Below are positions 13,007-24,259 of a DNA stretch of 64,000 nucleotides, piece after piece. Made by a program: the position numbers and the translations under genes. The DNA is taken from the NCBI GenBank assembly GCA_025059995.1, contig JANXCF010000001.1, positions 1-64,000 on the forward strand, read 5' to 3'. This stretch comes from Leptospiraceae bacterium (GTDB lineage Bacteria; Spirochaetota; Leptospiria; Leptospirales; Leptonemataceae). Each line of letters opens with the position of its first letter. Position 1 is the stretch's first letter. A model generated the notes under the pieces. It did no database searches and was not told the origin of the DNA. It was given only the letters and a program-made list of their open reading frames with translations.

Positions 13007-14221
13007 ATGTTTTTTCGAAGATACATTTATTTCATTGTAGCTTTTTTGGTTCTGCTGAATTTATCTTGCAAACATAAAGAAGTATCTTCAAAAAACTATG
13101 TAAAACCTCCTACCCCACCCGAGACAATAAGCGTCGGTATTCCAGTCCCCGAAAAACCTAAAACCATCGAGATTGATGAAACTCAAACATTTCTAGCCAA
13201 TCTTTTAGCCGGTAAAATTCATCCTCTTGAAGATCTTAATCCTCATCGGACAGTCGTCAATAGTAAATCCTATGCAATCCATTTTGAAGAAATGAAAAAG
13301 GCATGGAAAAATGCAGAAAACAAACGTTTCTACAAAATGAAAGAATGGGTAAAAAAAGAACTTCATTTTCTTTGCAAAAAAGAAGAAGTCATTTTTTATC
13401 CTTTTAGTGGTCCTGATTTTTTGAATGCACGTTTTATGTTCCCATGTGGAAAAGAATACATTCTTTTTGGTTTGGAACCCGTAGGAAAAATCCCTAACCT
13501 TGAACAACTTTCAGAAGAACATCGAAAGAGTTATTTTTATCATATTCGTGATAGTCTTCGTTCTGTTTTGAATTATTCATTCTTTCGAACAAATGATATG
13601 AAAATCGATTTCTTCAAAGAACTAAATGGCGTTATACCAGTATTGTTTGTGTTTTTAGCATATCATGAAAATGAAATTGTAAAGGTATCATACATTGAAA
13701 TGTCTCGAACAAACATTTATGAGATTTCGAACTTTCCTTCTTCTAAAGGCATTTCGGGTATTCGTATTGATTTTGTCCCTAAGAATAATAAAAAAGATTT
13801 GAGTTCCATTCACACCCTTATGTATTTTCAAATCAACATTTCTGATTCGAATATGAAAAATCATTCGTATTTCTTTGATCACATAAAAAAGAAAGGTCCT
13901 TTTATTACTTTTATTAAATCTGCTTCTTATCTAATGCATAGTGACCATTTTTCATTAATACGAAAATTCATCCTAGATAACAGCCATTATGTGATACAAG
14001 ATGACTCTGGCATTCCTATTCGCTTTTTTATGAATCCTCAGTGGCAACTTACGTTTTACGGAAATTATGTTTCTCCAATCAAGCTTTTCCAAAAACGATA
14101 TCAACCAGAACTAAGAAAAATTTACGAGACCTCAAAAGACATCAAACCTCTTCCTTTCGGCACTGGATATCATTTTTATCCGGGAACATCAAATTTACTT
14201 TTAGCAATAAAAAAGAAATAG
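13007..14221 (+). CDS. Putative lipoprotein, unrecognised
   Basis: This 404-aa exported protein starts with a basic, hydrophobic signal segment ending in FLVLLNLSC, read as a permissive spirochaete-type lipobox (Asn at -3 is unusual). A short Pro-rich linker (KPPTPPETISVGIPVPEKP) follows, as is common in surface lipoproteins. The body is rich in Lys, Phe and Tyr, with no motif I recognise and no membrane helix after the signal. It is a single gene, divergent from the permease and convergent with meaB. Function unknown. Confidence 0.65.
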   Translation: MFFRRYIYFIVAFLVLLNLSCKHKEVSSKNYVKPPTPPETISVGIPVPEKPKTIEIDETQTFLANLLAGKIHPLEDLNPHRTVVNSKSYAIHFEEMKKAWKNAENKRFYKMKEWVKKELHFLCKKEEVIFYPFSGPDFLNARFMFPCGKEYILFGLEPVGKIPNLEQLSEEHRKSYFYHIRDSLRSVLNYSFFRTNDMKIDFFKELNGVIPVLFVFLAYHENEIVKVSYIEMSRTNIYEISNFPSSKGISGIRIDFVPKNNKKDLSSIHTLMYFQINISDSNMKNHSYFFDHIKKKGPFITFIKSASYLMHSDHFSLIRKFILDNSHYVIQDDSGIPIRFFMNPQWQLTFYGNYVSPIKLFQKRYQPELRKIYETSKDIKPLPFGTGYHFYPGTSNLLLAIKKK

Positions 14222-19536: not shown

Positions 19537-19565
19537 TTGACAATGGATTGAAAAAAAAATATTCT
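19537..19565 (+). promoter_or_regulatory. Strong promoter of the ODP-cyclase gene, leaderless type
   Basis: A consensus TTGACA (19537-19542), exactly 17 bases of mostly A, then TATTCT (19560-19565). The ATG at 19577 begins only 11 bases after the -10 and there is no Shine-Dalgarno sequence, so the leader should be about 4-5 nt. Confidence 0.65.
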
Positions 19566-19576
19566 CTTTTTTTACC

Positions 19577-21208
19577 ATGAATTACCTAAGACCAATACAA
19601 GTTGTCGAAGATATATTTTGGATCGGTTTCCCTGATTTCGAAGCAGGATTTTCAAACAATTCTTATTTACTTTGCCATGGAAATGAAAGTGTTCTTTTTG
19701 ATCCCGGTCCAGCTTATCCCATGTTTCGTGATATTCTGATCGAAAAAATCCAACAGATTTGTCCTTTAGAAAATATACGTTATATCGTTGTTCATCATCA
19801 GGATCCTGATTTATGTGGAATGATACCATATTTAGAGAAATACCTATCTCCAGATTTGATTATCATTGCACATGGAAGAACAAGTTTGTTCCTACCCTAT
19901 TATGGTATTCGTAAGCCTATTGCAAGTGTTCAAGATGGTGATGTATTGGTTTTGCAATCAAAGCGAAGAATTCGGTTCATATTTACTCCTTACATGCACT
20001 TTGCAGGAAGCATGATGTCTTATGATGAACAAACCCAAACTTTATTTAGTTCAGACATATTTGGCGTTTTGGACAAAAACTGGAAGCTCTATGCAGACGA
20101 AGAATTGATCCAAAGAGCTCAGTTTTTCTTAGAATATTATACTGATAGCAAAGAAGCAGCTATGTATACCTACAATAAGCTAAAAGAACTACCTATTTCG
20201 AAAATCCTACCCCAACATGGTTCCATCATTGAAGAAAAATTAGTAAGTAAATTCATAGACATGTTATCAAATCTAAATCCAGGAAAACTTCTATACGTAA
20301 AGTCTGTAAACTCGAAGGAAAGAAAAATAGGAAACGAAATACTTCAAGAAATCCGAGACTTTTTAAAATCTATTTTGGATACAGAAATAAATACTGATAA
20401 CTTACAAGAAATCTTTCATATTACTGCAAAACATAGCATTACTTCTTTACTACACCTTTATGATTTCATTGAAAATTTGGAAAAAAAATATGGAGTAACT
20501 ATTCTAAATCAAAACCAAGAGTTATCTTATGAAACGATAAAAAACCGTTCTTTAAACACAGAAGAATTTATAAAAAAAGTTTATAAAAAACTTAATATTC
20601 CTTCAAAGAAAATTTCTTCGTCAAGAATTCAAAAATTCAACGCTTTCAAAAAAAATTTAGTAATAATGAATTTCGATATTCGAAGTTTTACTTATTGGTC
20701 ACAAACCCAATCCCCAGAAGTTGTATTTAAAGTTTTAAATAAAGAAATATCTGTTGTTTCCGATATCATCCAAACCTACCGAGGAAGAGTGAACAAGGTT
20801 TTAGGAGATGGAATCTTGGCATACTTCAATGAAGAACATATCAATTTTGCATTTAGTTGTGCCATACGAATTCATAATAGAATTTTCAAAGATGGCCTGC
20901 TTCCTGCAGGAATCAGTTTTGATATGGGAGAAACTATTGTCGGTGATGTTGGATTTGAAGAAAAATTTGATTATACCTTGATTGGGAATAACGTAAATCG
21001 TGCTTTTCGTTTAAATGATATTGCTGGTAAAGGGGAAATTTCCATGTCGAAAGATTTTTTTTCTAAATTAGACACAAAAGTTCAAAATAAAATCTTACAA
21101 AATGAATATTTAGAACAAAATGTTTTTCAATATGGGAATGAAGAACCTTTTGAGTATATAAAATTTAAAGTAGTCAAATACAAAGACAACGTTAAGTTAG
21201 CTATTTAA
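19577..21208 (+). CDS. ODP-like diiron metallo-beta-lactamase domain fused to class III nucleotidyl cyclase
   Basis: Residues 1 to about 235 form a metallo-beta-lactamase fold of the FprA/ODP type: HHQDPD (73-78), His141 in MHFAG, Asp160 in SSDIFG and His214 in LPQHG match the metal ligands of oxygen-binding diiron proteins. A helical linker (240-355) leads to a class III cyclase domain with all key residues: Asp367 (FDIRSF) and Asp411 (GDG) for metals, Lys407 and Asp465 for adenine selection, and Asn474/Arg478 for the transition state. The Lys/Asp pair predicts cAMP. No membrane segment is seen, so this is probably a soluble cyclase gated by O2, NO or redox state. It is divergent from the mutase operon and transcribed alone. 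Confidence 0.85.
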   Translation: MNYLRPIQVVEDIFWIGFPDFEAGFSNNSYLLCHGNESVLFDPGPAYPMFRDILIEKIQQICPLENIRYIVVHHQDPDLCGMIPYLEKYLSPDLIIIAHGRTSLFLPYYGIRKPIASVQDGDVLVLQSKRRIRFIFTPYMHFAGSMMSYDEQTQTLFSSDIFGVLDKNWKLYADEELIQRAQFFLEYYTDSKEAAMYTYNKLKELPISKILPQHGSIIEEKLVSKFIDMLSNLNPGKLLYVKSVNSKERKIGNEILQEIRDFLKSILDTEINTDNLQEIFHITAKHSITSLLHLYDFIENLEKKYGVTILNQNQELSYETIKNRSLNTEEFIKKVYKKLNIPSKKISSSRIQKFNAFKKNLVIMNFDIRSFTYWSQTQSPEVVFKVLNKEISVVSDIIQTYRGRVNKVLGDGILAYFNEEHINFAFSCAIRIHNRIFKDGLLPAGISFDMGETIVGDVGFEEKFDYTLIGNNVNRAFRLNDIAGKGEISMSKDFFSKLDTKVQNKILQNEYLEQNVFQYGNEEPFEYIKFKVVKYKDNVKLAI

Positions 21209-22656
21209 GTTGATATGAAATCATTTCGAATTTGCTCATAAATTTTTTCGTAATCATAATAAAAAATCGGATAAGTTCGATCAAAAAAAATCCTTCGATG
21301 ATAATCTGCTTCTTGAGCTTTTTTTAGCATGCTCATGAGATTTCTTTTGATCCCCAATGAATATAAATGCATCTTATGATTTAACTTTAAAAATTCTTGA
21401 TGTAGGTGATACCCATAGCTTTCTGAAGATTCTTGGATTCTTTTTTGTAAATCTACATATTCATTTTTTATATTGTGATTCAACCAACTATCATCGAAAA
21501 CATAATTCCTTTTGATTTTTTGGAATTGAGAGTCAAGATAGTTTTTTAGATGAATCAAATATAGCTTTTTCAGTCTTAATTCACAATCATTATCAAGAAA
21601 GATTTCGGGATTGAATTTCCATTTTCGTAGTTTTCTCCGAATTTCTTCTACAGAAGGATAATCCACAGAAAATGAAGCCTTTGGTTGTAAATAAAACGTT
21701 GATGTTGTCACAACACAAGGAGAAGGTTTTTGCTCTAAAAATCTTTCGATGATCGTTTCTGTAACTTGGTCGTAAAAACCTCCACCCGTTCCATGTATCA
21801 TCAAATCACTCAAAAACATTCTTATAATGAAGCTTAGCATAAATGCCTTTGGAAAAATATAGGGAATTTCACTCAAATCATCATTGACTTTTAAGGTTTC
21901 TCTTTTATACCCATCACTCTTCCATAAAGGGAGTTCATCATTTTTTAAATATGAAAAAAAATATTCATGATACTTTTTTCGAAATTCATCTAATGTTTGA
22001 TTATAAATTAATTGAAAAATTTTATAATTTTTTTTTATAAAGTCAACCAAATAAAAAAAGCTTTGGGTCTTGATGATTTTCGATAGATAGATAGGTTGAA
22101 CATGAAAACCCAATTCCTTCATGATAAATTGGTTGATTCCTGTTGAGAGTTCGGATATGGTAAGTTGGTTCTTTTTTGAGAAGAGTTCTTCAGTAAAATC
22201 TAATGCCTTTTGGATTTTGGGAACTACGCTTGGTTCAAAAAGGGAATATAAATGTAATCTCCACTCTCGGATTTTTTCGAAAAGCTTTTTTTTAAAATCA
22301 CCTTGCAAGATTTGATTTAATAAAACTTCTTTAGGATTGCTCAGTAAAAAATCTTCCCGATAAATACCATTTTGAAACCATAAAAACTTCCAATCAACAA
22401 ATTGTTGATCCACATCCAAAACTATGTAATAACAGCGGCCACCTATATGACATGAAATCAAATACGCCAGTATTAACTTCGTAAATATACCTGGATAGTA
22501 AAGTATCGGCTGATGCCCTGTGATTACCACCCTCTCTCGGGTAGGTATACCAAGTTCCTCACGAAATCTTATGGAAAGACTCCCCCACTCATCTTTCCTA
22601 ACCCTTGATAAATTTTCCTCTATCTCCTTTATACTATGTGATACATAAAATTTCAT
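21205..22656 (-). CDS. BshC-like GHQP-family protein, function unknown
   Basis: This is a 483-aa soluble protein. Near the N-terminus it has ITGHQPILYYPGIFTK, which resembles the TGQQPG start of the Rossmann domain in BshC (cysteine-adding enzyme of bacillithiol synthesis). A second landmark, IHGTGGGFYDQVTE around residue 290, matches strings I recall from uncharacterised planctomycete proteins that also carry a GHQP start, rather than classical BshC. The C-terminal 120 residues are a helical, probably coiled-coil region, as in BshC. It is the last gene of the argJ operon, downstream of a PIG-L/BshB1-like deacetylase. A role in ligating an amino acid to a sugar is inference only. Its stop overlaps that of the cyclase gene. 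Confidence 0.6.
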   Translation of the reverse strand: MKFYVSHSIKEIEENLSRVRKDEWGSLSIRFREELGIPTRERVVITGHQPILYYPGIFTKLILAYLISCHIGGRCYYIVLDVDQQFVDWKFLWFQNGIYREDFLLSNPKEVLLNQILQGDFKKKLFEKIREWRLHLYSLFEPSVVPKIQKALDFTEELFSKKNQLTISELSTGINQFIMKELGFHVQPIYLSKIIKTQSFFYLVDFIKKNYKIFQLIYNQTLDEFRKKYHEYFFSYLKNDELPLWKSDGYKRETLKVNDDLSEIPYIFPKAFMLSFIIRMFLSDLMIHGTGGGFYDQVTETIIERFLEQKPSPCVVTTSTFYLQPKASFSVDYPSVEEIRRKLRKWKFNPEIFLDNDCELRLKKLYLIHLKNYLDSQFQKIKRNYVFDDSWLNHNIKNEYVDLQKRIQESSESYGYHLHQEFLKLNHKMHLYSLGIKRNLMSMLKKAQEADYHRRIFFDRTYPIFYYDYEKIYEQIRNDFIST

Positions 22657-23578: not shown

Positions 23579-24259
23579 TCATTGATAACCTAAGGGCCAT
23601 TTTTTGTATAAAGGGATTTCTTTTTGGAAGAAGGGTTCGGCAGCAACTACATTCGCTTGTTTACCCCAGTATTTGTTTTCCAAAAATAGTAGCTCAAGGA
23701 TTGATTCTCTTTTGGATAAAAAAAATTGCGACTCATAGCAATAAACTGCTTGCCTTTTGATTTCCAGATATTCTGATATATCCACCAAAAAAGAAGGCAT
23801 AATTCGTAGTCGAATATGCAAAGGAAAGTAATAAATCACTCTTTGAGGGTAAAACGGTTCACCGGGAATATCTGACTTTGTCAATTTCGCATAAAACCTT
23901 GCAGCATCCGCTAATTTTGAGGCAGCAACGTGATCTGGATGAGCATCGTCAAAATAAGGAGCAAAGATATAGTTAGGTCGAAATTCTCTTATCACTTTGG
24001 CAATTTTTTTTCGATTTTCTATGGTATCTTCTAAGTAGCGGTTTGGCATATCAAGTGTGAGTCTTTGAGCTCTCAAGATTTCCGCTGCCTTTTGGGCTTC
24101 TTTTAAGCGGATTTCGGGAGAACCATGAGGTGTAGGTTCACCATCTGTTAGGTCTAAAATTAATACTTCATATCCTTGTGAGGTGAGTAATGCCACTGTT
24201 CCTCCCATTCCCATTTCCACATCATCAGGGTGTGCTCCAATACAAAGTATGCGATACAT
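23579..24259 (-). CDS. PIG-L/BshB1-like zinc deacetylase
   Basis: This 226-aa enzyme belongs to the LmbE/PIG-L family of N-acetylglucosaminyl deacetylases. The zinc and base residues are in GAHPDDVEMGMGG (AHPDD motif) and in DDAHPDHVAAS with the second histidine pair. The GSPEIRLKEAQKAAEIL and FAPYFDDAHPDHV strings are closest to the BshB1 branch, which deacetylates GlcNAc-malate in bacillithiol synthesis. No BshA glycosyltransferase is in the window, so the substrate could instead be another GlcNAc glycoside or a polysaccharide intermediate, given the Wzz neighbour. It starts eight bases after the TIGR02757 gene. Confidence 0.85.
   Translation of the reverse strand: MYRILCIGAHPDDVEMGMGGTVALLTSQGYEVLILDLTDGEPTPHGSPEIRLKEAQKAAEILRAQRLTLDMPNRYLEDTIENRKKIAKVIREFRPNYIFAPYFDDAHPDHVAASKLADAARFYAKLTKSDIPGEPFYPQRVIYYFPLHIRLRIMPSFLVDISEYLEIKRQAVYCYESQFFLSKRESILELLFLENKYWGKQANVVAAEPFFQKEIPLYKKWPLGYQ

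Follow-up and report, generated by a model that had tools for sequence, protein, structure and literature searches.

The window, a stretch of 64,000 nucleotides from a Leptospiraceae contig (JANXCF010000001.1), encodes a soluble protein that, judging from its sequence, probably acts as a cAMP switch under the control of oxygen or iron. The gene is a single open reading frame on the forward strand (19577..21208, ATG start, stop included) coding for 543 amino acids. From the N- to the C-terminus, the product comprises an oxygen-binding diiron protein (ODP) domain of the MBL-fold diiron type (residues 1–236, 19577..20284), a helical linker of about 120 residues (237–355, 20285..20641) and a class III cyclase domain (356–500, 20642..21076). 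A sequence-only reading of this DNA had assigned an ODP and a complete class III cyclase to a single polypeptide. Profile matches, structure prediction, Foldseek searches and a family with members in several phyla all bear this out.

The front half matches the Pfam profile for ODP (PF19583) at residues 26–215 (19652–20221) with an E-value of 9e-49 and 166.4 bits (cut-off: 27.2). The back half matches PF00211 (Guanylate_cyc) at residues 359–500 with an E-value of 1.7e-7 and 31.5 bits (cut-off: 21.9). In sequence comparison with solved structures, the ODP 6qrq was the best match to the front half, and class III cyclases matched the back half. An AlphaFold2 model calculated from a 37-row alignment has a mean pLDDT of 86.4, with values mostly above 90 in both halves. 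Confidence is low at residues 311–353, and because the pTM is 0.51 the placement of the domains relative to each other is unsure. Structure prediction had been suggested as a check by the sequence-only reading, and it recovered both folds. By way of Foldseek, the best PDB match of the model is the Thermotoga maritima ODP 6qwo (E-value 4.7e-18, TM score by target 0.83), with 6qrq also at the top and the peroxy-diiron form 6r9n, the Treponema denticola ODP 6qnm and flavodiiron proteins among the further matches. Sequence comparison places the chemotaxis ODPs of T. denticola and T. maritima among the nearest solved relatives, and by fold they are the nearest of all. The cyclase half of the model matches class III cyclases, including 2w01. 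Between the two halves, the models place helices at residues 246–267, 276–286, 288–305 and 318–339, and a second model, calculated for the relative from Ca. Abyssobacteria (L096), shows similar linker helices.

The metal set of the front half consists of H74, D76 and D78 in the motif HHQDPD (residues 73–78, 19793..19810), H141 (19997..19999), D160 (20054..20056), a bridging Asp if the analogy with flavodiiron proteins holds, and H214, which follows an ODP-type Gln (Q213–H214, 20213..20218). The motif, H141, D160 and H214 sit exactly where the sequence-only reading had located them; Q213 and the residue at position 79 went unmentioned there. Alignment with the solved ODP 6qrq ("HQDPD") identifies H74, not H73, as the ligand His of this motif. 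Among 93 aligned ODP rows, the motif ligands are conserved in 91–92, H141 in 91, D160 and Q213 in 92 each and H214 in all 93; the ODP-specific ligand set is complete in 90. The site had been described as "FprA/ODP-type", and of this label only the ODP part stands. Because residue 79 is Leu instead of His and Q213 precedes H214, the metal set is of the ODP type and not of the flavodiiron type. The flavodiiron HxExDH motif with its third His is absent, and a hydrophobic residue occupies position 79. The unusual coordination of ODPs, with Gln replacing the third motif-2 His, has been described (PMC7785958). Pfam detects no flavodoxin domain in the window protein; the C-terminal place of such a domain is taken by the cyclase. 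Profile, predicted fold and conserved ligands together support the assignment of the front half as a putative diiron sensor domain of the ODP type.

The family alignment also confirmed that the cyclase half carries every catalytic and specificity residue of a class III cyclase, as the earlier reading had it. The two metal-binding Asp residues are D367 (20675..20677) and D411, the latter in the segment that starts with K407 (20795..20809), and the transition-state pair N474 and R478 lies downstream of T467, all three within 20975..21010. By sequence, K407 and T467 correspond to the adenylate-type Lys and Thr/Asp pair for base recognition, whereas alignment to solved structures shows E and G at these positions in the guanylyl cyclase Cya2. 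This K/T pair suggests ATP as the substrate and hence cAMP as the product.

A search for the same two-domain architecture, also proposed by the sequence-only reading, found it in several lineages. A scan of the genome collection with the single sequence returned no relatives, whereas an alignment-based scan did; the best 80 of its 430 confirmed relatives were kept. Scoring was limited to a few top candidates in each genome, so that all genome-search counts are minimum numbers. These 80 include at least six full-length or near-full-length ODP-cyclases, which come from Ca. Abyssobacteria, two Spirochaetales, two near-identical bacterial copies and a member of the Victivallales that is cut at the contig edge. 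All six retain K407, D411, T467, N474 and R478. The near-identical pair (L099/L100) contains Asn at the positions of D78 and D367, with the loss of an iron ligand and of one Asp in the cyclase. Within the phylum Spirochaetota (296 genomes), the distribution is patchy, with intact full-length copies in at least two genomes and decayed copies in at least three. An intact full-length copy occurs in another genus of the same family (G008, 42% identity). The copy in a genome of the same genus (G001:C20:13761-14951; L068:9762-10952) contains many stop codons and retains about 50% identity over its conserved parts. Viral contigs gave no match, and plasmids contained only partial ODP or flavodiiron matches, none of which covered 80% of the query.

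In an alignment of eight members, six including the window protein keep all ligands, and mean identity is 57% in the ODP, 46% in the cyclase and 28% in the linker. ODP-cyclases form a single group in each of two trees, with support of 100/100 for the ODP half and 99/97 for the cyclase half. Since both halves are monophyletic, the simplest reading is that one fusion event was inherited as a unit, with spread or loss since. On balance, we favor the view that these proteins represent an undescribed bacterial adenylate cyclase family of single origin, scattered over several phyla, with a non-heme diiron site at which O2 or Fe(II) directly gates the enzyme.

As to how the window protein may work, we consider it likely, based on sequence and models, that it is a one-component, soluble adenylate cyclase with a diiron sensor, gated by O2, Fe(II) or both. 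The N-terminal ODP would bind two irons by way of H74, D76, D78, H141, D160, Q213 and H214. The conformation of this domain would shift when O2 reacts with its diferrous form or when Fe(II) is gained or lost, and the helical linker would pass the change on to the cyclase. A homodimer of the cyclase could then convert ATP to cAMP, which would be read by the cNMP-binding proteins of the cell. For this scheme we infer the iron occupancy, the identity of the ligand, the direction of regulation, the homodimer, the ATP substrate and the responding effector. We likewise infer that the cyclase is gated, be it by O2, Fe(II) or NO. Of these candidates, NO had been put forward by the sequence-only reading, but nothing specific speaks for it: the published ligands of ODP, a sensor that has been recruited to signaling, are O2 and Fe(II) (PMC7319448, PMC7666581). 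The genome itself encodes 11 matches to cNMP-binding domains and one heme-copper oxidase, which makes an O2/cAMP circuit plausible. It also contains about 17 other cyclase-domain matches, so that the ODP-cyclase would be one of many cyclic-nucleotide inputs.

Iron availability instead of O2 could be the signal, with the cyclase responding to the difference between an empty and an Fe(II)-filled site. Muok et al., a reference of PMC7319448, name ODP in their title as a sensor of both Fe(II) and O2, and both apo and metal-bound ODP structures exist. On the other hand, published ODP also forms O2-derived peroxy species, and the sequence separates neither option from the other; we regard an exclusive iron signal as rather unlikely. 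Unlikely, too, and a shade more so, is the idea that the ODP half serves as a scaffold or dimerization module for a cyclase that is constitutive or controlled in another way. This idea draws on two phylum members (G258 and G267) in which the equivalents of H74, D76, H141 and D160 are gone while the cyclase residues are kept, and on an ODP-GGDEF protein (L062) that also lacks ligands. However, G258 and G267 are 99.2% identical at the DNA level and frameshifted at one common position, and therefore represent one decaying lineage. Their cyclase might work without a sensor, or the gene might simply be dying. The six members with complete ligand sets also argue against a mere scaffold. Finally, the front half shares its fold with flavodiiron proteins and might in principle be an O2 or NO reductase with a cyclase attached. 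We find such an enzyme very improbable, since the protein has no flavodoxin/FMN domain, carries Leu where the third motif-2 His would be and has the Gln typical of ODPs.

Local control of a neighboring operon was also considered. The ODP-cyclase gene is flanked on one side by a methylmalonyl-CoA mutase/MeaB operon, from which it is divergent as the sequence-only reading had described, and on the other by a cluster that contains bshB1. This arrangement is local only. In G008, the ODP-cyclase and the mutase genes are far apart, and the other members have unrelated neighbors; no neighbor gene common to the family was found. Three sister species (G001, G002 and G003) have different genes next to their counterpart bsh clusters and no ODP-cyclase there, and the mutase locus of G003 contains none within the stretch read. 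Because neighborhoods are not conserved among intact, decayed and distant copies, we dropped the proposed functional link to the mutase, and a role as local regulator of this B12-dependent operon is hardly credible. Linkage to the bacillithiol genes was likewise rejected. The bshB1 gene itself (23579–24259) matches its NCBIfam model above the cut-off, and by this sequence match the spirochaete probably makes bacillithiol. A 483-residue gene next to the ODP-cyclase (21205–22656) looks BshC-like by eye; no Pfam or NCBIfam model matched it.

The near-consensus promoter of the earlier reading is a real element (TTGACA-17-TATTCT, 19537..19565, forward strand) that matches the consensus at 10 of 12 positions, but its –10 box ends only 11 nucleotides before the ATG. 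Between positions 14000 and 26000, 34 such sites were found against 40.6 expected, so that they are no commoner than chance. We therefore rejected this promoter as evidence of regulation.

HemAC of Leishmania is a globin-coupled O2-sensing adenylate cyclase. The window protein would resemble it as an O2-gated class III adenylate cyclase, whereas HemAC has a heme globin sensor and a eukaryotic host. Catalytic fold and residues are shared with the class III cyclases Cya2 (2w01) and CyaC, but these proteins contain no ODP domain, and Cya2 is a guanylyl cyclase. The hemerythrin diguanylate cyclase VcBhr-DGC (PMC8846402) offers another parallel, since it also combines a diiron O2/redox sensor with a nucleotide cyclase that the sensor gates, as we propose here; its sensor fold is unrelated and its product is c-di-GMP. 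With the ODP chemotaxis sensors (T. denticola TDE2498 and the T. maritima protein; 6qrq, 6qwo, 6qnm, 6r9n), the window protein shares the fold, the ligand set including Gln, the lack of a flavodoxin and an apparent role in signaling. Unlike those sensors, which are separate subunits acting on a chemoreceptor and CheA, its ODP is fused to the cyclase.

The earlier reading knew of no characterized ODP-cyclase, and among the papers searched we likewise found none on an ODP with a cyclase output. ODP fusions as such are not new: PMC7319448, citing Muok et al. 2019, states that ODPs occur in operons with signaling genes or fused to signal-transduction domains. The window protein resembles these fusions, as far as they are known from that citation, in its N-terminal ODP input module; the cyclase group differs from them in having a single origin and a linker of its own. 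If the proposed gating is correct, a non-heme diiron sensor would directly couple cAMP signaling to O2 or iron. With sensor and readout on one soluble chain, signal transmission by ODP becomes an ordinary enzyme-assay question.

In the literature found, ODP has been characterized only as a separate chemotaxis subunit; our survey shows it to be a general plug-in sensor, recurring with cyclase, GGDEF, PP2C and kinase outputs. Among the best 80 of the 430 relatives, 38 loci encode an ODP of standalone length, and most others carry GGDEF, PP2C or histidine-kinase outputs; representatives received their domain assignment from profiles, the remaining loci from clustering and motif. Three standalone genes lie near chemotaxis genes: one overlaps an MCP gene (L103:102-2247), one follows a CheB gene (L108:4975-6693) and one overlaps a CheA-like gene (L170:4125-6708). 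These loci and the fusions agree with the statement in PMC7319448 on signaling operons and fusions.

ODP-GGDEF proteins, some with a receiver domain, are common and make up about 27 of the 80 top-ranked relatives (within L118–L175, for example L148, L154 and L131), and a 2022 census of c-di-GMP sensors makes no mention of ODP (PMC8846402). Homology between their linker and that of the ODP-cyclases was not established (hhalign probability below 3%). The ODP-GGDEF protein with most of its iron ligands lost (L062, genome G196) is a candidate for a ligand-independent or redirected sensor. The genome of the window encodes a second ODP protein of about 700 residues, in which the ODP is followed by a SpoIIE/PP2C phosphatase and TPR (G000:C2:125290-127400, L002), and many genomes of its family contain relatives of similar length. 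One ODP-PP2C frame (G003:C14:91657-92917, L065) is split near residue 125, by a frameshift or an assembly error.
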